Below, in pieces: positions 1 through 37,313 of a DNA stretch of 51,865 bases. The DNA is taken from the IMG/VR virus record IMGVR_UViG_3300013093_000065, positions 1 to 51,865 of that record. One strand, 5' to 3'. Source of the DNA: a virus. The position numbers and the translations under genes are program-made. The number at the start of each line of letters is the position of its first letter. Position 1 is the stretch's first letter. The notes under the pieces are model-generated. The model was not told the DNA's origin, ran no database searches, and was given only the letters and a program-made list of their open reading frames with translations.

Positions 1-16
1 ATAAACGGGTGAAATT

Positions 17-1354
17 ATGGCAAATACCAAACCAGAAGTAACAGCAGAAGAACTAATTGAAATTATCAAATTCACACCTCGCACTTACAAGATTAGTATG
101 TGGGGCTATGGTGGCGAAAAAGTTATGGGTACAGTACCTCGAGAATCTTGGGATTACTGTATGGCTAACCAAGTTGACCTGAGTGATATTGCTTGGAACA
201 GTGATGCCGCAGAAGACATGGGTCTTGATGCCGATAAATTACCATTTCCACCGGGATCCTGGTACGAGTGTGATGATTTAGCACACGTCAATGGTGTTAG
301 TCGCACAGCAGGTACACTACAGATTACAGACGAAAATGATGAAGTGGTATTTGAACGATCATTGGATGACTGCGACGGGGGAGATGACAGTCCAGAATTG
401 CATTGCGATGACGAAATCTGGATCGGGCAAGAAGAAGCCGGTAAGGTTGTGTTTGTTGGATCCAGCAATGAAAAAGGCACATTCTTTGAAGGTGAAATTG
501 AACTTACTCAACCCTTTGATATCGAAAAGCTGGAACTACACTACGACGAAGTTGACGGTGAAGAAATTGTCAACGGTGTTGTCTACGATGGTGAAGACAT
601 TGACAACTGGGGTGGTAGTACTGATGGTAAGAGTTCAGACTTTACCATGGCCCTGGTTGGCGAAGATGGCGAATGGGAACGATATGAGCCAGAAGAAAAA
701 GATTGGGGTCATCCCGAATATGGCACAAGCCCAGAGTCTTGGGAATCGAGTCCTAAGTTTAAATTTAAAAAAGACAAACCAGTGCATCCAGGTTACTATA
801 GTGTAAATTGGGGTTATGGGTCAACATACGGATCATTGTATTGGGACGGTGAAAATTTTGGCGAGTGGGAGTATGGCAAGTTTAATCCTGTAACGCAAGC
901 AGGAGTTGTTACGTGGCAAGGCTTTAATTGGGATACCAGCACCTGGGCTAATCGTCCACCTGAGCCAGTAAACGCTGAATGTAGTAATAAAAAATGCGGT
1001 TGGGTAGGTATGCGTGATGACATGCGTGAAGATGATGACTACAATAGTCATTGCCCGGCGTGTGATGGTACAGACTGGGAATGGATTGATTATGACCCAG
1101 ATACCAAAAAGGGTTTAAAGAACCGCGAGAAGTATTGCTTACCAGCGGCACCCGACGCAGATGTAGCTCATTTAGAGCAGGCGTTAGAAGAACTTAAAGA
1201 AGAATTTGAACGACTTTGCGAAGAAGAACCCGAAGCACAAGCAGAGTGTGTACAATGTTCATGGAAGGGTTTTATTGAAGACTTAGCCTACCCAGATGAT
1301 GGGAAAGGTGATGGTGTGTGTCCTGCTTGTGGTGAACCAGTGGAATTGTTATAA
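17..1354 (+). CDS. Acidic protein with two C-terminal zinc-ribbon-like clusters, unknown function
   Basis: I do not recognise this 445-residue protein. It is strongly acidic and rich in Asp, Glu, Trp and Gly. The last third carries two four-cysteine sets spaced like zinc knuckles: C322/C327 with C346/C349 (CPAC), and C411/C414 (CVQC) with C435/C438 (CPAC), separated by a Glu/Leu-rich helical stretch. Zinc binding is inferred from this spacing only. An in-frame TAA at 2-4 means base 17 is the first possible start. It is followed after 11 bases by another acidic gene with a good ribosome site, so the two are probably co-transcribed. Acidic phage proteins sometimes act as DNA mimics or host-factor binders, but nothing here proves that. 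Confidence 0.8.
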   Translation: MANTKPEVTAEELIEIIKFTPRTYKISMWGYGGEKVMGTVPRESWDYCMANQVDLSDIAWNSDAAEDMGLDADKLPFPPGSWYECDDLAHVNGVSRTAGTLQITDENDEVVFERSLDDCDGGDDSPELHCDDEIWIGQEEAGKVVFVGSSNEKGTFFEGEIELTQPFDIEKLELHYDEVDGEEIVNGVVYDGEDIDNWGGSTDGKSSDFTMALVGEDGEWERYEPEEKDWGHPEYGTSPESWESSPKFKFKKDKPVHPGYYSVNWGYGSTYGSLYWDGENFGEWEYGKFNPVTQAGVVTWQGFNWDTSTWANRPPEPVNAECSNKKCGWVGMRDDMREDDDYNSHCPACDGTDWEWIDYDPDTKKGLKNREKYCLPAAPDADVAHLEQALEELKEEFERLCEEEPEAQAECVQCSWKGFIEDLAYPDDGKGDGVCPACGEPVELL

Positions 1355-1365
1355 GGAGAATTAAA

Positions 1366-1872
1366 ATGGCTTGGTATACAGTTAAAACTTATCATAAAAA
1401 GAATGTAGAGCAACATGAGTATTTCCGTCATCGTGAAACCGGTGCCACTATTTGTGTTAAAGACGGTTTCCGTTTCGCCGAATACAATGTAGAAACTAAC
1501 GATGATAATCCGCCGGAGTTTAATTTTACACAATGCCCGGGTGGTAGTGCAGATGCAGATAGCATTGATTTAAACTCATGTTTTGGCGATAACGTAGAGT
1601 CAACAGAATTAGTAGAAATGTTTGACGGCGGTTGTTGGGGAGACATCGAAATTGAAGGTGTGGACGATGAAGAAGAGGAAGATCGCTTGCGTGAGCTGAT
1701 CGAAGAAGAAGGTTCATATGCCTTAGAAGAAGATGGTGATGGAGAATGGTACTTAGACGAAACCGAAGTTTGGGTATGGGGACCAATTGAAATTACCAAC
1801 GATGAAGGATATCAACGTATTGTTATCGCCGACGAAGATGGTAGTGCCATTGACTTTGTTGAAGAAGACTGA
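1366..1872 (+). CDS. Very acidic hypothetical protein
   Basis: This 168-residue protein is not recognised. The centre (about residues 95-135) is a dense Asp/Glu run, and the rest has scattered Trp and Gly, much like the preceding gene. AAGGAG lies 6-7 bases before the ATG, a strong ribosome site. The C-terminal end overlaps the next small gene in another frame, which is common in this compact genome. No transmembrane segment or metal motif is visible. The charge pattern alone would fit a DNA-mimic or inhibitor protein, but that is speculation. Confidence 0.8.
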   Translation: MAWYTVKTYHKKNVEQHEYFRHRETGATICVKDGFRFAEYNVETNDDNPPEFNFTQCPGGSADADSIDLNSCFGDNVESTELVEMFDGGCWGDIEIEGVDDEEEEDRLRELIEEEGSYALEEDGDGEWYLDETEVWVWGPIEITNDEGYQRIVIADEDGSAIDFVEED

Positions 1873-3250: not shown

Positions 3251-3628
3251 ATGGAATACGATATGTATCAAGACATGCAGGACTCAACTTGGTTCAAACA
3301 TAAAGTCCGAACCAGTGATAGCTATGCCCAAAACTTATATGCCGCATTGTGCAATATGCAATGGCAAAAGTTAGATGTAATGCCGATACTTAAAGATGAG
3401 TATTGGCATTGTAGTTGGCGTAGTGCTGGCGGTATTGTTGCTGACCTGCGATGCGAGGGCGACTATATGGATTGGTATTGTAGTGGTATACAGGATTTTG
3501 GCACTGATGAAGCCGATCCCAGATTCTATGTTGGCGGGCATGTGGCCGAAGGCCATGTGACCGAGGAGATCAAGCATGACCTTGGTTTGCTTGGATGGAA
3601 ACCCGTGCCATATGAAAAGGACGAATAG
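3251..3628 (+). CDS. Conserved phage protein, paralogue of the gene at 4061
   Basis: A 125-residue protein of unknown function. It shares with the gene at 4061-4435 the blocks SYAQNLYAALCN / IYAQNLYAALCN, W(H/D)C(S/T)WR, then DW YCSG, a VTEEI near the end and a final LGW/IGW. The pair is therefore a duplication. From memory the same block pattern occurs in T4-like phages of aquatic bacteria, where it has no assigned role. The conserved Trp, Cys and Tyr suggest a compact globular fold. No clear ribosome site precedes the ATG, which lies one base after the preceding stop. Confidence 0.75.
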   Translation: MEYDMYQDMQDSTWFKHKVRTSDSYAQNLYAALCNMQWQKLDVMPILKDEYWHCSWRSAGGIVADLRCEGDYMDWYCSGIQDFGTDEADPRFYVGGHVAEGHVTEEIKHDLGLLGWKPVPYEKDE

Positions 3629-4060: not shown

Positions 4061-4435
4061 ATGCCAAGAAAAGTGTTTAATTTAGAACGCGATTTACGCA
4101 GTACGGATTGGATTATTTCAAAAGTCCGTGCCCATGAGATCTACGCTCAAAATTTATACGCCGCACTATGTAACAATGCCTATGCTCCAAGAGATGTTTG
4201 GGGTTTACTAAGCAATATTACCTGGGACTGTACTTGGCGATATGCGGCTACCTTGGTGTCGGACATTCGCGAAGACGAAAGCTATATTGATTGGTACTGT
4301 TCAGGTACCGGTTTTAAAGGTACAGACTTTACTGGTTTTGTAGAAGAAAGTTATGTTACCGAAGAAATAGAAAAGGATTTCAATACTATTGGATGGTTGT
4401 TAACAACCAGAAGATTTTACGAGTTTCCAGGTTAA
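4061..4435 (+). CDS. Conserved phage protein, paralogue of the gene at 3251
   Basis: A 124-residue protein, clearly homologous to the gene at 3251-3628 (shared YAQNLYAALCN, CTWR/CSWR, DWYCSG and VTEEI blocks). The two copies flank the HTH gene. A GTAAATA late-type motif at 4046-4052 lies upstream, but its distance to the ATG (8 bases) would put the start point just inside the leader. No ribosome site is visible. Function unknown. Confidence 0.75.
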   Translation: MPRKVFNLERDLRSTDWIISKVRAHEIYAQNLYAALCNNAYAPRDVWGLLSNITWDCTWRYAATLVSDIREDESYIDWYCSGTGFKGTDFTGFVEESYVTEEIEKDFNTIGWLLTTRRFYEFPG

Positions 4436-4457
4436 CTATGAATTATAGTAGCCGTTA

Positions 4458-4480
4458 ACGAAATAATTTTTTTATTTCGT
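4458..4480. repeat. AT-rich inverted repeat upstream of the porin gene
   Basis: ACGAAATAA, five-base T loop, TTATTTCGT: a perfect nine-pair arm. It could end transcription from the gene at 4061, but the T run is in the loop rather than after the stem, so a terminator role is doubtful. It sits just before the late-type motif at 4485. Confidence 0.5.
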
Positions 4481-4484
4481 CTGG

Positions 4485-4492
4485 GCTAAATA
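4485..4492 (+). promoter_or_regulatory. T4-like late promoter motif (GCTAAATA) upstream of porin
   Basis: GCTAAATA, identical to the octamer ahead of several virion genes here. Predicted start near 4498. With the sigma70 promoter at 4511 it would give the porin gene both early and late expression. Confidence 0.4.
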
Positions 4493-4510
4493 AATTTGTA
4501 GTTCAAATTA

Positions 4511-4539
4511 TTGACATATATATTTTAGTATGTTAATAT
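4511..4539 (+). promoter_or_regulatory. Strong sigma70-type promoter of the porin gene
   Basis: Consensus TTGACA (4511-4516), 17-base spacer, TAATAT (4534-4539). Predicted start near 4546, giving a leader of about 94 bases before the porin ATG. Confidence 0.8.
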
Positions 4540-4569
4540 CAACCAGTAATTAACACATTACTAACTTTA

Positions 4570-4622
4570 CGAAAATAACATTGAAGATAGTATGATACTA
4601 TCGAATATGCGAAAATAACATT
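4570..4622 (+). repeat. Direct repeat pair around a palindrome in the porin leader
   Basis: CGAAAATAACATT occurs at 4570-4582 and again at 4610-4622, exactly 40 bases apart. Between them is the perfect palindrome GATAGTAT-G-ATACTATC (4586-4602). The second copy directly precedes the AAGG ribosome site. The arrangement suits a regulator binding site or a leader RNA structure controlling porin synthesis. Confidence 0.55.
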
Positions 4623-4639
4623 TAAAAAGGAATTAAACA

Positions 4640-5818
4640 ATGAAGAAGTTATTACTTGCTCTTGGCTTAACCATGTCTATTGGTTTCGCGCAAGCTCAAT
4701 CAAATGTTACCGTATACGGTATCTTGGACGTAGGATATGTTGGTAGTAGTCAACAACTTACTTCCACAGCAGGACAAGCCGCTACTAAAACCACAATCAA
4801 TCAGTTTGGTCAATCAGCAGAACAAACTTCACGGATTGGTTTTAAAGGCAATGAAGACCTTGGTGGCGGAACAAGTGCGTTCTTTACAACTGAGTTTCAG
4901 TTATATCCAGAAGACAATAATCTCTCTGGTAGTACAAATTCAGGTTTGTTGAACCGTCAAACTTTTGTTGGACTTAAACAAACAGGCATTGGCTCTTTTG
5001 CTGTTGGCCGTCAATATACTCCATTGTTTAATGCTGCGGCAGTGACAAATCCCGGTGGATACAACAACGTTGTTGGTGACGTAGTCTATCTGGCCAGTGG
5101 TTCAGGTGCTGCAGGTACAAGTACAGCAACAACTATCACAGGTCAAGAAAACGGTCTTGGTTTTACCAACCGTGCTAACAATGCTATTACATTCCAAACA
5201 GATACTTTCAAAGGTTTTTCTGCTAACGGTATGTATCAGCTAAACAACAAGAACACAACACAGACTGGTGCAGCCGCTGGTGGTGAAACTAATCAATATG
5301 GTTATGGCTTGGCAGTTACTTATGTCTACGACAAATTGTTAATCAATGCCGCTAAACAATCATTCACACAATACACAACAGGCACAGCTGCATCATTCAC
5401 TGATATGAATATTGCTTCTTTTGTAAGTATCAAGGATAGTCAAAACTATGCTGGTGCTACTTATGACTTTGGCATTTTAAAAGCCTATGCTCAATATGTT
5501 AGCCGCACTTTAACATCTACTTTAGATGGTAGTCAGTTTGGTAAACGTACAGCACAACAAATTGGTGTTCGTGGTTACTTTACACCAAAGATTGAAGGTT
5601 GGGCAAGCGTAGGTAACGGTAAATGGGACCAATATGGTTCAAATGCTGGTAGCGTTCCATTCACAGCTTATCAACTTGGTACTAACTACTGGTTAAGCAA
5701 GCGTACTAACTTGTATGCAATCTTTGGTAGTACACAATCGTCTGGCAATGCAGCAACTACCGCTGGTGCAGACAGTTCAAAAGATATGTATGCTGTAGGT
5801 ATGCGTCATACTTTCTAA
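4640..5818 (+). CDS. Outer-membrane porin (Gram-negative porin family)
   Basis: A 392-residue trimeric-porin-type protein. A signal peptide (residues 1-20, MKKLLLALGLTMSIGFAQAQ) is followed by the porin opening NVTVYGILDVGY, a SRIGFKGNEDLGGG block, an NRQTFVGLKQTGIGSFAVGRQY block, alternating beta strands with periplasmic turns, and the C-terminal phenylalanine (MRHTF) needed for outer-membrane insertion. This matches betaproteobacterial porins. It should form a diffusion pore in the host outer membrane. The gene has its own promoter, AAAGGAA ribosome site and terminator. Some lambdoid phages carry porins (for example Lc of PA-2), where the new porin excludes other phages; that role, or improved solute uptake, is inference here. 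Base composition matches the neighbours. Confidence 0.92.
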   Translation: MKKLLLALGLTMSIGFAQAQSNVTVYGILDVGYVGSSQQLTSTAGQAATKTTINQFGQSAEQTSRIGFKGNEDLGGGTSAFFTTEFQLYPEDNNLSGSTNSGLLNRQTFVGLKQTGIGSFAVGRQYTPLFNAAAVTNPGGYNNVVGDVVYLASGSGAAGTSTATTITGQENGLGFTNRANNAITFQTDTFKGFSANGMYQLNNKNTTQTGAAAGGETNQYGYGLAVTYVYDKLLINAAKQSFTQYTTGTAASFTDMNIASFVSIKDSQNYAGATYDFGILKAYAQYVSRTLTSTLDGSQFGKRTAQQIGVRGYFTPKIEGWASVGNGKWDQYGSNAGSVPFTAYQLGTNYWLSKRTNLYAIFGSTQSSGNAATTAGADSSKDMYAVGMRHTF

Positions 5819-5838
5819 TTTAATTTAGATTAAACACT

Positions 5839-5861
5839 AAACCCACTTAGGTGGGTTTTTT
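5839..5861 (+). terminator. Rho-independent terminator after the porin gene
   Basis: ACCCAC, TTAG loop, GTGGGT followed by six T. The next promoter begins directly after the T run. Confidence 0.9.
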
Positions 5862-5862
5862 G

Positions 5863-5891
5863 TTGACTTTGTTTTTTCAAGAGTTTATAAT
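5863..5891 (+). promoter_or_regulatory. Sigma70-type promoter with predicted leaderless start
   Basis: TTGACT (5863-5868), 17-base spacer, TATAAT (5886-5891). With the -10 box at -12 to -7, +1 is base 5898, the A of the ATG of the next gene, so the mRNA should have no leader. Confidence 0.8.
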
Positions 5892-5897
5892 CATTGA

Positions 5898-6329
5898 ATG
5901 TCATATATTCCCACAACTTTTCCTGCAAACATAACAGTACCAAACGGCGGAACCAGTCATTCATTATACGGTGCCGTTCCACCAACTGGTAACGTAACCC
6001 TAACTGCCGGTACAGGTGTTACAAATTGGGCCACCACCGCCGGTTACAATTACAATACTGCCATAGCCGAACTTGGTGACAAAGGCGGGTCGGGTAAACT
6101 CATACTCAAAGGACCAGATGCCGATATTGAAATGAATGGTAAAAGTTTAGGCGAAGCTATAACAGCAATCGAAGAAGCATTACTAATTCCGGGCAGACTG
6201 AATCGAAATACCGAACTTGAAAAGGAATTTGCTGATCTTAAAGCCTTGGGCGAACAATATGTAGCAATGGAAAAGAAGTATCAAGAACAAAAACGGGTAT
6301 GGGACATACTCAAAAAGCAAGACCAGTAA
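5898..6329 (+). CDS. Hypothetical protein with coiled-coil C-terminus
   Basis: A 143-residue protein. The N-terminal half is Gly/Thr/Asn-rich with beta character (VPNGGTSHSL, LTAGTGVTNW). A block LILKGPDADIEMNGKSL follows, and the last 60 residues are helical and charged with Glu/Lys heptads ending in WDILKKQ. From memory the IEMNGKSL and ALGEQY blocks recur in T4-like phages of aquatic bacteria, without known function; a virion or assembly role is possible. There is no ribosome site: the -10 box ends six bases before the ATG, so the transcript is predicted to be leaderless. Confidence 0.75.
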   Translation: MSYIPTTFPANITVPNGGTSHSLYGAVPPTGNVTLTAGTGVTNWATTAGYNYNTAIAELGDKGGSGKLILKGPDADIEMNGKSLGEAITAIEEALLIPGRLNRNTELEKEFADLKALGEQYVAMEKKYQEQKRVWDILKKQDQ

Positions 6330-8284: not shown

Positions 8285-8487
8285 TCAATTGGTCTTGGTT
8301 AATTGCTCGTTTTATTTCGGCCCTGGGATCATGGTTAGATGCCAGCAACCTAAGAAATCGTGTATATAAACTTGAACAAGAGAAGGAAATCATGTATACT
8401 GCATTAGAGGATGTACGACGCATGGACCCAGAAGGGCGCATTGGCTGGTATGCCAAATCAGTATTGGATAATATAGATGGGAAATAA
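8281..8487 (+). CDS. Small membrane-anchored coiled-coil protein
   Basis: 68 residues if started at GTG 8281, which overlaps the preceding TGA (GTG 8272 is the alternative). A hydrophobic amphipathic segment (WSWLIARFISALGSWL) is followed by a charged helix (LRNRVYKLEQEKEIMYTALEDV). It overlaps the start of tctB by 11 bases. Whether it helps the transporter is unknown. Confidence 0.55.
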   Translation: MINWSWLIARFISALGSWLDASNLRNRVYKLEQEKEIMYTALEDVRRMDPEGRIGWYAKSVLDNIDGK

Positions 8488-8893
8488 ACAATTACTAATC
8501 GGAGTTACATTTATAGCAATCTCACTGGCCTTTGGCTTGGGAGGATTTGCCTATACTGTCGGAACTCCAGATGATGCGGGGCCCGGGTTCTTTCCCTTGG
8601 TAGTCAGCGTGTCGTTGGGACTTCTTGGCGTATGTTCAGTTATTAAAAGTTTTTTTAACAGAGACACAGTAACATTAAAATTAAGAAACCTTGCAATAAT
8701 TACCGCTTCATTATTGGCCTTTGCTGTTGCAACAGAATATATTAACATTGTTGTTGGTATTGTATTGTTGGTAATTACATCATCGTTTGCCAGTGAAAAA
8801 TATTCAATAAAAAATGTTGTATTGATTTCTGCAGGATTAGTTGTAGTTGCATATCTATTTAAATATCTTTTAGGGCTAAATTTACCACTATGA
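8477..8893 (+). CDS. tctB: Tripartite tricarboxylate transporter small membrane subunit (TctB family)
   Basis: A 138-residue integral membrane protein with four hydrophobic segments (about 6-26, 39-56, 71-104 as a pair, 113-133). The loop after the first segment carries DDAGPGFFPLVVS, close to the family block in which G-P-(G/A)-x-(F/L/W)-P begins the second helix. Length and topology match TctB. It partners TctA in a secondary transporter that takes substrate from a periplasmic binding protein. Its end overlaps the tctA start as ATGA. It sits inside the phage small-gene operon with no gap, which argues against host contamination. Confidence 0.85.
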   Translation: MGNKQLLIGVTFIAISLAFGLGGFAYTVGTPDDAGPGFFPLVVSVSLGLLGVCSVIKSFFNRDTVTLKLRNLAIITASLLAFAVATEYINIVVGIVLLVITSSFASEKYSIKNVVLISAGLVVVAYLFKYLLGLNLPL

Positions 8894-10389
8894 TAGACAC
8901 CTTAAATTATCTTGTAATGGGATTTGGCCATGCCCTTACTGTTCAAAATTTACTTTATTGCGCCATTGGGTGTTTCATCGGAACGTTAATAGGGCTACTA
9001 CCTGGTCTTGGACCAATTTCTACTATTAGCCTATTATTGCCACTGACTTATACAATGCCCACTACAGGTGCCCTTATTATGCTTGCCGGCATTTACTATG
9101 GCGCACAGTATGGAGATAGTGTCAGTGCTATTACTATGAAGATTCCCCACGCATCAAGCATAGTTGCCTGTATAGATGGATATCAAATGCATCTCAATGG
9201 GCAAACAGGTCTGGCCTTGTTTACTGCCGGTGTTAGTAGTTTCATAGGCGGAACAGTTGCTGCTGTAGTAATTGTATTTTTTGCACCTGTGTTGGGAGAA
9301 ATGTCATTCTTATTTGGCCCAAATGAATACTGTATGCTGATGCTGTTGGGCTTTGTCTGCGTTAGTTTGATTACCACAGGAAGTCTGCTCAATGGACTTG
9401 GCATGGTGTCTATAGGAATATTAGTCGGCATGGTTGGTACAGATGTCAACAGTGGTGTGACTCGTTACGCCATGGGCCTACCATTCTTAATGGACGGAAT
9501 AGGAATCATCAGTGTAGCAATAGGTAGCTTTGGCCTGGCTGAAATAATTAAAAATTTAGACAATCGAGATGAACGTACACCCTTTACAGGCAATATCAAA
9601 TTGATTCCAACCTGGGCAGAGTTTAAACGTATCATACCTTCGGCATTGCGTGGTAGCGTTGTTGGTAGTTTCTTGGGATTATTACCTGGAGGTGGCCCGA
9701 CTATTGCTCAGTACGGTGCTTATGCTGTAGACAAAAAGTTTAGTCGATATCGAGATGAAATGGGCAAGGGTGCAATAGAAGGAGTTGCCGGACAGGCCGC
9801 TGCAGATGAAGCCGCAGCTCGTACAAGTTTTATTCCTTTATTATCAATTGGCATTCCTGAAAATGCTGTTATGGCCTTGATGTTAGGTGCGTTAATGATC
9901 AAAGGCATCACACCAGGTCCGCAGATGATTACCAAACACTCAGAAGTGTTTTGGGGTCTGATTGCTTCCATGTGGATTGGCAATGTGTTCTTGTTGATAT
10001 TAAACGTGCCACTGGTCAAATACTGGTTAAGTATTTTTAAGATTCCTTATAGTGTACTTTTTCCTTGTATTTTATTCTTTTGTTGCTTAGGTACATTCAG
10101 TGGCAATAACAATATCAGCGACATCTATACTACGGCTATATTTGGTATCATGGGCTATTGGTTTTTAAAATTGGGACTTGAAGCGGCTCCGCTGATGTTG
10201 GGCTATATTTTAGGACCCATGCTGGAAGAACACTTTAGACGTGCTATGATGATCAGCAGGGGTAGCTTCAGCCCGTTTTGGGAACGCCCAATTAGCTGTA
10301 CTATGTTGATTTTAATAGGATTTTTTATTGTTTATAGCCTATATTCCTGGTTGACCAATAAAGGAAGAAGTGCTATAATAAAAGTGTAG
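8890..10389 (+). CDS. tctA: Tripartite tricarboxylate transporter large membrane subunit (TctA family)
   Basis: A 499-residue polytopic inner-membrane protein of the usual TctA length. The two signature loops of the inverted repeat are present: GLLPGLGP (35-42) and GLLPGGGP (263-270). The block IPLLSIGIPENAVMALMLGALMIKGITPGPQ (about 315-345) corresponds to the conserved substrate-translocation region. TctA uses ion gradients to import carboxylates such as citrate delivered by TctC. No TctC gene is present in the window; a host TctC could serve. The region 298-312, where host proteins often have an ESANNAA-type string, reads ADEAAAR here, a divergence worth noting. Last gene of its operon; a promoter for the next gene lies inside its 3' end. 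Confidence 0.92.
   Translation: MIDTLNYLVMGFGHALTVQNLLYCAIGCFIGTLIGLLPGLGPISTISLLLPLTYTMPTTGALIMLAGIYYGAQYGDSVSAITMKIPHASSIVACIDGYQMHLNGQTGLALFTAGVSSFIGGTVAAVVIVFFAPVLGEMSFLFGPNEYCMLMLLGFVCVSLITTGSLLNGLGMVSIGILVGMVGTDVNSGVTRYAMGLPFLMDGIGIISVAIGSFGLAEIIKNLDNRDERTPFTGNIKLIPTWAEFKRIIPSALRGSVVGSFLGLLPGGGPTIAQYGAYAVDKKFSRYRDEMGKGAIEGVAGQAAADEAAARTSFIPLLSIGIPENAVMALMLGALMIKGITPGPQMITKHSEVFWGLIASMWIGNVFLLILNVPLVKYWLSIFKIPYSVLFPCILFFCCLGTFSGNNNISDIYTTAIFGIMGYWFLKLGLEAAPLMLGYILGPMLEEHFRRAMMISRGSFSPFWERPISCTMLILIGFFIVYSLYSWLTNKGRSAIIKV
10351..10379 (+). promoter_or_regulatory. Sigma70-type promoter inside the 3' end of tctA
   Basis: TTGACC (10351-10356), 17-base spacer, extended TGC-TATAAT (10374-10379). 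It shares TTGACCAATAAA and GTGCTATAATA with the promoter at 34996. Predicted +1 about 10386, serving the gene at 10422. Confidence 0.75.
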
Positions 10390-22854: not shown

Positions 22855-24891
22855 ATGACCGTATCAATCGTTACCGTTAACACCAGCACACCAAACAGCG
22901 GTGGTGGCGACACTATCTATACCGCTTTTAGCAAAGTTAATAATAATACCGGCAATTTGGCCTTAGCAGTTAATAATCTGCAGGCAACCTATGCTAACAC
23001 AAGCTATGGTGTATTTGCCAACATTACTGTTACCAATCAAGTAATTGGACGTATGAACTTTAGTTCGGCAGGCGGCGGCGGCGTGTTTGTTGATGGTAGC
23101 CCTGTTGCAACTTCTGCTGCTTCGTTTACGGGCGGTAATGTACCAAGTCAAGCTAATTTTATCGCAACTACCAGCAGCACAAGCAAAACAACTGGTGCCG
23201 TTGTAGTCTATGGTGGCATGGGCGTTGCTCAAGATGTAAACATAGGTGGCTCAGTTAATTCTACAGGCGACAGTACAATTGGTGGTAACTTAACTGTCCA
23301 AGGAGCAAAAGACAGTTCAAACAGCTCTACTGGAGCAATAGTTGTTACTGGTGGTTTGGGTGTAGGTAAAAATCTAAACGCTGGACAAAATATATATGTT
23401 GGCGGTGCAGCCAGTGTTACTGGTACACTCAGCGCAGGTGGTGACACAACTATATCATCTACAACAATAAGCGTTGGTTCTACATCAGGTGCATTAATTG
23501 TGTCCGGTGGTACAGGTATCGCTGGCAACCTATACATTGGCGGAACAACTAACACTCAAGATTTAAATGTCGCTGGTAATATTACCGTTACTGGTAACGC
23601 GGTATTAGGATCGCAAACTGTTACTGTTACAGACAATTTAATTGAATTACACACTTATGCAAATTTGGCACCGTTAACGTCCGACGATGGCAAAGACATT
23701 GGTATTCGTTTCCATTATTATCGTGCAGGTGGACTTGGTGACAAAGAAGCAGCGTTAACCCTTGCACACGATACCAACGCAATGGAATTTTATATCACTG
23801 CAACCGAAACAGCAGGACAAATTTCAGGCACCTATGGTACTTACAAAGGCGGTGCTGTTATTGCTGCAAATACTACAGCGGCCACAAGTACCTCAACAGG
23901 TGCTCTACAAGTAGCAGGTGGCGCAGGTATTGTTGGAAATTTATATGTTGGTGGAAATATTATATCCACCAGCACTGGCTTTACACAAGTTGCTTCTGGT
24001 AATTCAGCACAACGTCCAAATGGTCCAAACAATGGTATGATACGCTATAACAGCGACATTACCAGCTTTGAAGGTTACTATGCTGGTGCATGGTCAAGTC
24101 TTGGCGGGGTTAAATCAGTTGATGGCAAGGCATATATACAAGCAGAAAATTCTGCGGGTGCCGGTGACGATGTATTACGTTTTTATGCTGGAGATTCTGG
24201 ATCAAGTACACAGGTAATGTGGGCCAGCACAAGTAACATTAAAATATTACCCACTACAACATCAACCAGTACTACTACCGGCGCACTTCAAGTAGCTGGT
24301 GGCGTTGGTGTTGCCGGTAATATCTACTCTGGCGGTACTGTTAGTGCTACTTCTGTTACAGCAACAAACTTAACAGGAACTCTGCAAACAGCCTCACAAA
24401 CAAATATTACATCAGTAGGTACCTTAAGTGGATTAACAGTCAGCGCCGCTATTGTACCAAATGGTAACGGTACGGTTACATTGGGCTCATCAGGCGCTTG
24501 GTGGAGTAGCATTTACGGTACTGCTGTTCACGCACAGTACGCTGACTTAGCAGAAAAATATCTTGCCGACGCAGATTATGATGTTGGTACTGTTGTTGCT
24601 GTTGGTGGCAATAAAGAAGTTACAGCCTGCCAAGCAGGTGATTTGGCAATTGGAGCTGTTAGTGCTAATCCAGCATTTAAAATGAATGACGGCCTAACCA
24701 ACGGAACATTTATTGCACTTAAAGGTCGTGTGCCAGTTAAGGTAGTTGGTCCCGTAGTCAAAGGACAACGATTAATAGCCGGCGCCAGTGGATGTGCTAC
24801 CGCAGTTTTGCAATCCAATGATGTATTTGCTATAGCATTAGAAACTAATAATGATACTGGTGTTAAATTAGTTGAAGCAGTAATTCTTTAA
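22855..24891 (+). CDS. Tail-fibre-like protein with repeated beta modules
   Basis: 678 residues. The N-terminus (GGGDTIYTAFSKVNNNTGNL) resembles the GDxLxxAFxKxNxN module of the gene at 18015. At least five repeats follow of the form (S)TSTGALxVxGGxGVxGNLYxGG, about residues 98-125, 155-185, 200-228, 337-365 and 470-500, likely beta-helical or triple-stranded. The C-terminal domain (YADLAEKYLADADYDVGTVV to the end) is the shape I associate with fibre and G2-type C-terminal domains of phages; self-cleavage is possible but no catalytic pair is identified. Confidence 0.82.
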   Translation: MTVSIVTVNTSTPNSGGGDTIYTAFSKVNNNTGNLALAVNNLQATYANTSYGVFANITVTNQVIGRMNFSSAGGGGVFVDGSPVATSAASFTGGNVPSQANFIATTSSTSKTTGAVVVYGGMGVAQDVNIGGSVNSTGDSTIGGNLTVQGAKDSSNSSTGAIVVTGGLGVGKNLNAGQNIYVGGAASVTGTLSAGGDTTISSTTISVGSTSGALIVSGGTGIAGNLYIGGTTNTQDLNVAGNITVTGNAVLGSQTVTVTDNLIELHTYANLAPLTSDDGKDIGIRFHYYRAGGLGDKEAALTLAHDTNAMEFYITATETAGQISGTYGTYKGGAVIAANTTAATSTSTGALQVAGGAGIVGNLYVGGNIISTSTGFTQVASGNSAQRPNGPNNGMIRYNSDITSFEGYYAGAWSSLGGVKSVDGKAYIQAENSAGAGDDVLRFYAGDSGSSTQVMWASTSNIKILPTTTSTSTTTGALQVAGGVGVAGNIYSGGTVSATSVTATNLTGTLQTASQTNITSVGTLSGLTVSAAIVPNGNGTVTLGSSGAWWSSIYGTAVHAQYADLAEKYLADADYDVGTVVAVGGNKEVTACQAGDLAIGAVSANPAFKMNDGLTNGTFIALKGRVPVKVVGPVVKGQRLIAGASGCATAVLQSNDVFAIALETNNDTGVKLVEAVIL

Positions 24892-32900: not shown

Positions 32901-33276
32901 AAATATCAATCTTGTAGCGTTTTATTATATGAAACCACGTGCTGGTGTAAACACTACGGTCAAAGGCTGGATGGATAATCCCAATAATGTTCGTTGGGAC
33001 GAGCGAGTAGAAATCACCCGTGGTCTTAAAAAAGACAGCGTTCATGCTAAAGTCATTATGGACCTTAGTAATAAAACTGTTACCAAAAATGCCTGGGGCG
33101 ATAATAAAGATTTTGACGGATTGTTTAAGCATTTCTTTACAGGATATCATCAATATATCACAACTGTAATGACCCAGTTGGATCCTGAATATTTTAATAA
33201 AATGCTCGACGAGATGCAGGCAGAATTAGACGCCGAGAAAGAACCAGAAGCAAGTGCAGAGCCCGTTGCCCAGTAA
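32890..33276 (+). CDS. Conserved phage protein after the clamp loader
   Basis: 128 residues with TTG start 32890 (a later ATG at 32929 is possible). The beta-rich core NTTVKGWMDNPNNVRWDERVEITRGLK and VHAKVIMDLSNKTVTKN is well conserved from memory in T4-like phages; the Glu/Ala tail is disordered. It occupies the position of the gp62 subunit, but I see no gp62 signature. Function unknown. Confidence 0.65.
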   Translation: MNNKNINLVAFYYMKPRAGVNTTVKGWMDNPNNVRWDERVEITRGLKKDSVHAKVIMDLSNKTVTKNAWGDNKDFDGLFKHFFTGYHQYITTVMTQLDPEYFNKMLDEMQAELDAEKEPEASAEPVAQ

Positions 33277-34447
33277 TACCTTTTGTGTATTACCCTGGAC
33301 TCATTTTTTTCACGAGCCCAACGGCAAAATTATGCCCTGTTGTTCTGCCAATAGCCGTTCAGCAGATTTTGGAAATATCCAGGACTTTAATTCTGCAGAC
33401 CAAATTGTCAACACCGACGCTATGAAACAACTGCGTCAAGATATGTTAGCAGGACGTCAAAATCCTGCGTGTAGTCAATGTTATCGAGAAGAATCCCATG
33501 GTCTAACCAGTTTTAGGCAACATAAGAATAACGACATCATTGATGTTAATCTCAAAGCCTTACTCGATAACACCCAACAAGACGGAACTTTGGACAACTT
33601 TAAAATACAGTATTGGGATTCAAGGTTCAGCAACGTATGTAATTATAAATGCCGTATGTGTGGCCCAGATTATAGTCATACCTGGGCCGAGGAATCATAT
33701 CGCGGATCCAATCGCAAAGATTATGTAATCAAAGCACACAATACAGACAATTGGTCAACTATTATTAATCGTTATGGCGATTTGACTCAATTGAAAGAAG
33801 TGTACTTTGCCGGTGGAGAATCACTTTATCAAGTCGAACACTGGTCTATGCTTGATCAATTAGACCAATTGGGCCTACACAATATAAAAATAACCTATAC
33901 TACTAATCTTAGTAAACTTGGATTTGGGCAACGTAGGTTAGAAGATTATTTAAAAAGATTTACAAATGTATTGTTTATTGTAAGTTTAGATGCCGTTGGG
34001 CCGCTGTTGGAATATATACGTTCTGGAAGTAGTTGGACTACTACACAAAACAATATCAATACTATACTTCCATTAGCAAGATTAAAATACAATATTGTAA
34101 TAACAGTTTACAATGTATTACACTTATCGGAGTTAATTGATTTTGCAGTTGATCATACAACAAATTTTGCAGGCACTGATTTTACAGTAGCACACGAACC
34201 TGTTGCACAAAATATTACTAATCTTCCAACAGAATTAAAAGATTTGGCCAGGGATAGATTATTATCCAACCGCAACTATTCAATTCTTAAAGATAAGATA
34301 GATGCTGTGATAAATTATATGTACGACTCGCCGGTCAGCAGTTGGCAGGCAACTATTGCAGAAACCAATCAATTAGACATAATTAGAAACGAAAGCGTAT
34401 TATCAGTAGTACCAGAATTTAAGGAATATTGGCATGAAAAGATTTAA
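33254..34447 (+). CDS. Radical SAM enzyme with twitch/SPASM-like cysteines
   Basis: 397 residues. The 4Fe-4S cluster motif CX3CX2C is at C129, C133 and C136 (CNYKCRMCG). VYFAGGESL is the GGE motif for SAM methionine binding. Further cysteines in the N-terminus (C11, C29, C30, C73, C76: FCVLPWTH, MPCCSA, ACSQC) suggest an auxiliary cluster domain placed before the core rather than after it. Substrate unknown; peptide or small-molecule modification is typical. Start GTG 33254 (TTG 33266 is possible), overlapping the upstream gene. A cupin gene overlaps its end. Confidence 0.88.
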   Translation: MQSPLPSNTFCVLPWTHFFHEPNGKIMPCCSANSRSADFGNIQDFNSADQIVNTDAMKQLRQDMLAGRQNPACSQCYREESHGLTSFRQHKNNDIIDVNLKALLDNTQQDGTLDNFKIQYWDSRFSNVCNYKCRMCGPDYSHTWAEESYRGSNRKDYVIKAHNTDNWSTIINRYGDLTQLKEVYFAGGESLYQVEHWSMLDQLDQLGLHNIKITYTTNLSKLGFGQRRLEDYLKRFTNVLFIVSLDAVGPLLEYIRSGSSWTTTQNNINTILPLARLKYNIVITVYNVLHLSELIDFAVDHTTNFAGTDFTVAHEPVAQNITNLPTELKDLARDRLLSNRNYSILKDKIDAVINYMYDSPVSSWQATIAETNQLDIIRNESVLSVVPEFKEYWHEKI

Positions 34448-35723: not shown

Positions 35724-36297
35724 GATTATATTAGTTGATGCAGATGGTGTGTTGTTAGATTGGGAATATGCGTTTGACGTTTACCTACAGCAACACGGTT
35801 TCAACAAAATAGAAGGCGGCAATTTAAAATATGATATTGGCAAGCGGTACGGCATTGATCGTGAACAAGGTAAACGATTAATAAAACTGTTCAACGAGTC
35901 GGCACATATTGGATTCCTGCCAGCATTACGTGACAGTATGTTTTATGTAAAACGTCTACATGAAGAACATGGTTATGTATTTCACTGTATTACAAGTCTA
36001 AGTCGAGATGAAAATAGTCAAGAGTTGCGTAGAATGAATTTGCGTAAACTGTTTGGCAAAACAGCATTTGAAAAGTTTGTATTTTTAGACACTGGTGCTG
36101 ACAAAGATTTAGCATTAGAACCTTATCGCAACAGTGGTTATTACTGGATCGAAGATAAAATTACCAATGCCCAAGTTGGACATAGCCTGGGACTTAAGAG
36201 CCTGTTAATGGAACACGGACACAATATGGATTTTGTTGATCCCAATATTCCACTTGTTAAAAACTGGAAAGAAGTTTACGAACGTATAGTGGGTTAA
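35713..36297 (+). CDS. HAD-superfamily hydrolase, deoxyribonucleotidase-like
   Basis: 194 residues. Motif I is VDADGVLLDWE with the nucleophile D9 and acid D11. CITSLSRD is a motif II-like strand, and YWIEDK near 155 is motif IV-like. The DxDGVLxDW opening is that of the 5'(3')-deoxyribonucleotidase group, which controls nucleotide pools. It ends in TTAA, shared with the stop of the convergent gene. Confidence 0.75.
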   Translation: MKNKIILVDADGVLLDWEYAFDVYLQQHGFNKIEGGNLKYDIGKRYGIDREQGKRLIKLFNESAHIGFLPALRDSMFYVKRLHEEHGYVFHCITSLSRDENSQELRRMNLRKLFGKTAFEKFVFLDTGADKDLALEPYRNSGYYWIEDKITNAQVGHSLGLKSLLMEHGHNMDFVDPNIPLVKNWKEVYERIVG

Positions 36298-37313
36298 CTA
36301 CCACAGGTTTCATTGCAAGTGTAATGGCGCCCATTGGCTACAGAATCGATTGACCAGGTTTTTTCTAATTCATTAAACCAGTCAATTGATTTTTCAATAC
36401 CAATTTCTAAAGCATTATTTTCTTTTAATACCGCACGAGTGTGATCCGTTCCAGGACGTATTACGTTGGTGCGTGGAGAAAATCCAATCCAACAACAAGG
36501 ATAAACTTCTCCATTGCTTTGTACATATATTTCTCGTCCTTGCAGTATCTGACATTTAATTTCTTTTGCAGGCGTATCTTTATAAAGCATATCCACGTGA
36601 TTGTCTAAATTTTGTTTTAGACGATCTGTCATTATTTTTCGATAATCTAATAACTTTGTAAAATTTAATTCGTGTGTTGGCTCACCAATGCTGTGTTGAT
36701 AGTTGCCGTCTCTATCATAAACTGCGGTATTATTCCTACCGTGATTTACAAGATTAAAACTGGCAAATCCCATGTCTTGACTGCGTTGTTTGGCTTCGGC
36801 TCTTTGATGTTCATTAAAATCAAATTCGATCATGACCCACATAGCTCGTCCACCAGCATTGATAAATTTTTGAGCATTGCTCATTATTAAATTAAAGTCG
36901 GTGTATTGTCTGTATAGATGGTGCGTATCCTCGAGACCGTCAATTCTAAACCCTACACTGACACGTGGAATCTGTCCCAGTGCTTCCCATATCTTGGGTT
37001 GCCCTGATCCGTTTGTACTAATATCTATGTTTAATTGTGGGTTAGATTCAGCAAAATATTGAACAATAGGTAAAGCATCACGACAAGTAACAAAGTCGCC
37101 ATAATTACCATTAATGTATAGTCTGCGTAGTTGTTTTAGAAATTCAACGGGAAAGATTTTTTTGGCTTCAGCCAAGGTCATGTCATGCACTACGAAATCG
37201 CCCAGGTCTTCAATGTCAACCCCGCGAAGATTGCGTGGACACTCAGGACAGGCTGCGTTGCATCGGCTACTTATTTCAAGATGAACTACTCTTATATCGG
37301 AATATGAAAACAT
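36294..37313 (-). CDS. Radical SAM/SPASM protein
   Basis: 339 residues. The radical SAM cluster motif is C18, C22, C25 (SRCNAACPECPRN), near the N-terminus as usual. The C-terminal SPASM-like part has CQILQGREIYVQSNGEVYPCCWIG and a final CNETCGS, which would hold auxiliary clusters. SPASM enzymes often modify peptides. Start 37313 is preceded on the minus strand by an exact TATAAATA six bases ahead, so the mRNA may be leaderless; no ribosome site is present. It needs reduced Fe-S clusters, linking it to the ErpA gene in function. Confidence 0.85.
   Translation of the reverse strand: MFSYSDIRVVHLEISSRCNAACPECPRNLRGVDIEDLGDFVVHDMTLAEAKKIFPVEFLKQLRRLYINGNYGDFVTCRDALPIVQYFAESNPQLNIDISTNGSGQPKIWEALGQIPRVSVGFRIDGLEDTHHLYRQYTDFNLIMSNAQKFINAGGRAMWVMIEFDFNEHQRAEAKQRSQDMGFASFNLVNHGRNNTAVYDRDGNYQHSIGEPTHELNFTKLLDYRKIMTDRLKQNLDNHVDMLYKDTPAKEIKCQILQGREIYVQSNGEVYPCCWIGFSPRTNVIRPGTDHTRAVLKENNALEIGIEKSIDWFNELEKTWSIDSVANGRHYTCNETCGS

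Follow-up and report, generated by a model that had tools for sequence, protein, structure and literature searches.

A porin gene and Tct transporter genes in a large T4-type phage: a possible route of carboxylate uptake

The porin gene described here is carried by a virus record of 51,865 bases that is a fragment of a larger genome, and the whole of this stretch is called the window below. We read the gene as a phage nutrient-uptake gene that would provide the outer-membrane step of a phage-encoded import of carboxylates across two membranes, and we give this reading a probability of roughly 0.58. A single phage genome, represented by the 127-kb sister contig G001, holds the porin, TctB, TctA and two TctC genes. 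This Tct set, together with the placement of TctC beside other phage porins, favours an uptake route as far as gene content can indicate. The virus is a freshwater one and, judged by its genes, the window is a piece of a large T4-type phage; the porin and TctA both indicate the Polynucleobacter group, and the host was most likely Polynucleobacter or a close relative. The features of the porin region, and the gene that served to place the phage, are as follows:

4061 to 4435, + strand: phage gene at the upstream edge of the porin slot, with 83-85% identical counterparts upstream of the porins of contigs L089 and L092
4485 to 4492, + strand: putative late-promoter box GCTAAATA, 154 nt before the porin ATG
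4511 to 4539, + strand: sigma70-type promoter TTGACA-N17-TAATAT with an extended -10 TG, 10 of 12 matches
4586 to 4602, + strand: inverted repeat GATAGTATGATACTATC in the leader, flanked by two CGAAAATAACATT direct repeats, the whole element spanning 4570-4622
4640 to 5818, + strand: porin of 392 aa, signal peptide at about residues 1-20, C-terminal Phe, candidate pore residues R65, R106, R178 and E85
5839 to 5858, + strand: intrinsic terminator of the porin, with an 8-bp stem, a 4-nt loop and a T run
5898 to 6329, + strand: phage gene at the downstream edge of the slot, with a 35% identical counterpart just after the porin of L089
31956 to 32900, + strand: DNA polymerase clamp loader (phrog_168, 4.8e-76), used to place the phage

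The porin, its ancestry and the phage that carries it

The sequence-only reading of this DNA had described the range 4436-5861 as a cassette with a complete porin, a signal peptide and a terminal Phe, and this description was borne out. The encoded protein matches the Pfam family Porin_4 (PF13609) over residues 15-369, most of the barrel, with an E value of 4.6e-33 and 115.8 bits against a cut-off of 27, and it matches Porin_1 at 3.7e-12. By eye, the N-terminus MKKLLLALGLTMSIGFAQAQ is signal-peptide-like and ends in AQAQ, and the last residues of the protein are RHTF. Its PDB matches are Neisseria PorB and the beta-proteobacterial porin Omp32. The Omp32 residues R38, R75, R133 and E58, which we take to be pore-lining, align with the four candidate pore residues of the window porin, which are conserved; within its clade, phage and host porins alike retain the three aligned arginines. 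The alignment thus places in this protein the arginine cluster and the beta-3 glutamate of anion-selective porins. A porin anion pathway formed by a basic cluster and one glutamate has been described (PMC3723809). Because the candidate residues are common to host porins, they would fit a general porin as much as a carboxylate porin.

The closest host porins are those of Polynucleobacter, whose general porins (Porin_4, PorB/Omp32-like) are 41-50% identical to the window porin over the full length by BLAST. In the phylogeny against host porins, which had been proposed as a check, the window porin groups among them: together with those of L003, L004, L005 and L081 it forms a phage-only group (100/100) nested in a larger, well-supported clade of Polynucleobacter-type porins. 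This clade contains a second phage group, L083-L086, at another position, and other phage porins fall outside it. That the nine phage porins of Polynucleobacter type go back to one origin was only marginally rejected (AU p 0.037), and in a wider tree the starred branches require three or more host-phage changes; the repeated capture of porins that these results suggest rests mainly on the wider tree. The dN/dS of the porin is 0.065 against the sister contig and 0.10-0.18 against its 72-74% identical relatives in L004 and L005. These values indicate purifying selection, and the open reading frame is therefore not a chance one. The gene thus has the marks of an auxiliary metabolic gene, being host-derived, located in a verified phage genome and under purifying selection. 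The nine phage porins are 376-397 aa long, whereas 12 host porins have 394-458 aa (P 1.8e-4). The stretches absent from the phage porins follow window residues 44, 209, 251 and 375 and were assigned by strand counting to the predicted extracellular loops L1, L4, L5 and L8.

The bacterial origin of the porin is clear, and the earlier reading had named host DNA joined by misassembly as the finding that would overturn it. That the segment is host DNA misjoined to phage, or a non-functional passenger gene, now has a next to negligible probability. Misassembly was rejected because separate IMG/VR records show these junctions at 99-100% identity: G001 matches the window at 99.3% across 31.8 kb including the porin and TctAB, and a separate 6.9-kb contig spans the porin at 99.9%. 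The arrangement also recurs in divergent phages, two of which bear the 72-74% identical porins, one of them on a contig that also has T4-type portal and baseplate genes. A passenger gene is further at odds with the dN/dS range of 0.065-0.18, with a base composition that is phage-like (GC 0.409 against a phage mean of 0.404), and with promoters that are phage-type. Near the left end, at window positions 1-1868, the two contigs differ: they are 80% identical up to about 1350, and the sister contig is without the next 500 or so bases, including the open reading frame 1366-1872. Beyond this region the identity is 99%.

As for the phage itself, relatives of the clamp loader are found on contigs of up to 374 kb, and the nearest isolates by this gene, at 58% identity, are the PA5oct-like Pseudomonas jumbo phages of about 285 kb. 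Further window genes encode tail and virion proteins and a PhoH-like protein. The sequence-only reading had drawn a parallel with lambdoid phages; the replication and virion genes here are T4-type, and the phage is large. Lc of the lambdoid phage PA-2 is a phage-carried outer-membrane porin, and it serves here as a functional precedent and not as a relative. Among 50,697 isolate-phage records we found no match for the window DNA or its porin; the same collection gave no match for TctC or for Polynucleobacter-type porins, and its TctA matches were all below 40% identity. The comparison therefore rests on uncultivated virus contigs. Among other genes in these genomes, the window encodes radical SAM-type proteins at 33254-34447 and 36294-37313, one with a SPASM domain, which have relatives in G002. 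Phage tmRNA genes lie at L004:8188-8636 and G001:44948-45350; in the L004 one, located directly upstream of the L004 porin, the predicted tag is unusually long.

The porin slot and its promoters

The window and L089 share a gene order that consists of an HTH gene, a 124-aa gene (85% identical), the porin, a gene of 140-160 aa and a pair of small genes, to which L089 adds further small ones. Most of these neighbours are 53-85% identical but the two porins are just 32% identical, so that one porin seems to have been replaced by another at a single slot, as far as the alignments can tell. Immediately upstream of the window porin, 3251-3628 and 4061-4435 are two related genes of one family. The downstream slot gene has its own strong promoter-like site at 5863-5891 (11 of 12 matches). 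It is one of several strong TTGAC-N17/18-TATAAT-like sites on the coding strand (5863, 10351, 15134, 29128, 34996 and 44355), mostly intergenic, which are likely the phage's host-type promoters. A string of genes after the porin is conserved in other contigs (L005:2205-6859, L081:5447-10200 and L084:9930-14967). Its members are a small gene family with 2OG-oxygenase-like motifs recognised by eye, TctC, an SGGTDS PP-loop-like gene and an AAA ATPase; in Pfam, neither the 2OG-oxygenase-like small genes nor the SGGTDS gene has a match.

The late box claimed for the porin was found, and the window as a whole makes it a credible late promoter on grounds of motif and position. All six copies of GCTAAATA in the window are on the + strand and none is on the - strand. 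Five of them stand 28-34 nt before a gene start: four ahead of the open reading frames starting at 22855 (virion/tail fibre), 27853 (tail), 49904 and 50947, and the fifth about 31 nt ahead of 18015, where a baseplate/tail fibre gene probably begins, so that three of the five genes are tail or virion genes. The sixth is the porin copy. Across 19 phage sequences, 6 of 14 occurrences of the box lay 25-40 nt before an open reading frame, where permuted 7-mers gave 1.4%, although the test is not fully independent because the box was picked from the window. The shorter CTAAATA is overall rarer than expected, and only its strand bias, its spacing and the GCTAAATA form are informative. The sites have the features of T4-type late promoters, namely a TAAATA-type -10, no -35 and a location near late genes. 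The porin copy, distant from the ATG and with the sigma70-type site between the two, is presumably used as a promoter as well.

The consensus sigma70 promoter of the earlier reading is present, yet at 10 of 12 matches it is by itself no better than chance, there being 9 such sites in the region against 8.0 expected. What makes the site credible is its conservation in other phages. CTAAATA also stands upstream of the porins of L004, L005, L081, L085, L086, L088, L089, L091 and L092, and a cassette of CTAAATA, then TTGACAT, then TATGTTAATATC precedes the porins of L085, L086 and L092 and, in degenerate form, that of L089; the phage porins with this common cassette are just 32-48% identical to the window porin. 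None of 12 Polynucleobacter-type host porins, which have another promoter, is preceded by the combination of late box and sigma70-type site. CTAAATA as such was considered as a phage-specific mark and rejected: in 9 of the 12 host porins CCTAAATA occurs at -100, within the conserved host promoter region. The arrangement differs, in that the box precedes TTGACA in the phages and comes after it in the hosts. A scan of all viral contigs for the tight version of the cassette gave one unrelated match. Since the cassette stands before distant phage porins and host porins have a different promoter, the promoter region appears to belong to the phages. A porin with both promoters would be expressed early and late.

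In the alignment with related phage porins, their leaders lack the inverted repeat of the window leader and its CGAAAATAACATT repeats. The terminator of the sequence-only reading is present, and terminator hairpins also follow the porins of L004 and L005.

Tct genes in the window and in related phages

Downstream of the porin the window encodes the two membrane subunits of a Tct transporter:

8477 to 8893, + strand: TctB, small membrane subunit (PF07331, 8.8e-15, 55.5 bits against a cut-off of 29.1)
8890 to 10389, + strand: TctA, large membrane subunit (PF01970, 4.4e-140), overlapping tctB by 4 nt

Of 41 host-genus genomes, 40 have a TctA that is 54-57% identical to the window TctA, and the remaining one gives a fragmentary match. 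TctC, the periplasmic binding protein that completes a tripartite tricarboxylate transporter (TTT) system, is not encoded within the window; the two TctC genes of the sister contig lie about 8-11 kb past the window's left end, so that the same genome carries all three components. TTT systems have been linked to terrestrial organic matter, and the known binding proteins include ones for adipate and terephthalate (PMC7597016).

The partnership with TctAB that had been suggested from sequence alone is strengthened by these TctC genes and by phages that place TctC beside the porin. In G002, G005 and G008 no more than 1.5 kb separates TctC from the porin, TctC is also near the porin in L005, L081, L083 and L084, and in L094/L097 (contigs of 105 and 315 kb) it starts 20 nt after the porin. 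This proximity is seen in separate porin lineages, and a combined test gave P ~0.006, a value to which one TctC under the Pfam threshold and contigs not wholly independent of one another contribute; the TctC of L094 is just below that threshold, and some TctC matches are weak. For the lineage of the window itself, about 12 kb separates the porin from TctC, which is not nearer than expected by chance (P 0.34). TctC is not clearly more frequent in contigs with porins than in their relatives, and therefore proximity alone was used as evidence.

Possible roles of the porin

From these data we infer a timing, an anion selectivity, a substrate and a physiological role as follows. The porin would have been captured from a Polynucleobacter-like host and adapted by the phage, and its synthesis would start from the sigma70-type promoter and be renewed from the late one. 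Organic anions would pass through the arginine-lined pore into the periplasm, be bound there by phage TctC proteins and be moved over the inner membrane by phage TctA and TctB. In this way the supply of carbon and energy could continue, or be redirected, as host gene expression fails.

The main competing explanation, superinfection exclusion in the terms of the earlier reading, is a remodelling of the cell surface, in which the phage porin replaces the host porin and hides a receptor from rivals, or from the phage's own progeny at lysing cells, while nutrients still pass and the Tct genes are a separate matter. We consider this less likely, at somewhat under half the weight of the uptake reading. 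The shorter phage porins, with their gaps in predicted surface loops, speak for it, as does the presence of different porins in the same slot (32% identity between the window and L089, next to a flanking protein at 85%), which is expected for a surface protein when selection changes. The host genomes of the closest group have only one or two matching porin genes, and there is a precedent in the PA-2 type porin transcript, which gives rise to the sRNA ipeX that controls host OmpC (PMC12197685). Such remodelling, however, leaves the TctC neighbours and the full Tct sets unexplained, and dN/dS stays low. The shorter loops could simply save coding length, and in the length comparison the phage porins do not count as independent. 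Uptake and surface remodelling could both be true together.

It is also conceivable, and in our view improbable, that the gene is a generic housekeeping porin that makes up for the loss of host porin mRNA during infection and has no link to Tct or to exclusion. It is indeed closest to the general host porin, in the window some 2.7 kb and a terminator separate it from tctBA, and Tct genes occur in many relatives without the window-porin family. The recurrence of porin-TctC adjacency in separate lineages argues against mere maintenance. The uptake reading has to be held against two further findings, namely that some porin contigs, several of them short, are without TctC and that TctC occurs in many relatives that have no porin of the window-porin family. 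A wider proposal, which we offer as tentative and hold to be doubtful in its entirety, is that huge freshwater phages keep a dedicated slot with an early and late promoter cassette of their own, into which loop-trimmed beta-proteobacterial porins are repeatedly captured and exchanged, and that with TctC, TctB and TctA these would make a full import line whose trimmed loops also remove the receptors of rivals.

Several elements of this arrangement are already known, namely phage porins of the PA-2 type, viral tctA and a viral amtB-ompL pair. The Polynucleobacter general porin shares family, aligned pore arginines and tree clade with the phage porin, which differs in its shorter predicted extracellular loops, its phage promoters and its phage base composition. 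Lc of PA-2, associated with the sRNA ipeX (PMC12197685 for ipeX), is like the present porin in being located in the outer membrane, carried by a phage and provided with its own promoter; here, in contrast, the virus is large and T4-type, the porin is of beta-proteobacterial type and transporter genes lie alongside. The marine viral glnK-amtB-ompL cassette likewise combines an inner-membrane transporter with an outer-membrane porin, but its transporter is for ammonium, its porin is Bacteroidetes-type and its hosts are others (PMC8115048). A viral contig of SUP05 viruses carries a Tct component as well; in the passage on it tctA appears as a domain match only, with TctB, TctC and a porin not mentioned there (PMC4164917). 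Neither the open-licence papers searched nor the isolate-phage records yielded a phage porin combined with a full Tct set.

Phage auxiliary genes are usually seen as rerouting metabolism inside the cell. A virus that supplied the pore in the outer membrane, the binding proteins and the permease of the inner membrane would have control over the substances entering the infected cell, and the case sets two ideas on phage porins against each other, that they feed the cell and that they hide it from rivals. Uptake of this kind could bear on carbon flow in Polynucleobacter-rich lakes, because TctC and TctA are common in the window's large-phage clade: among 50 related records (L147-L222, comprising G013, G022, G023 and G026-G072), TctC is present in 22, 19 of them above the Pfam cut-off, and TctA in 13. 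As a separate observation, some records of this clade carry two or three copies of TctC.
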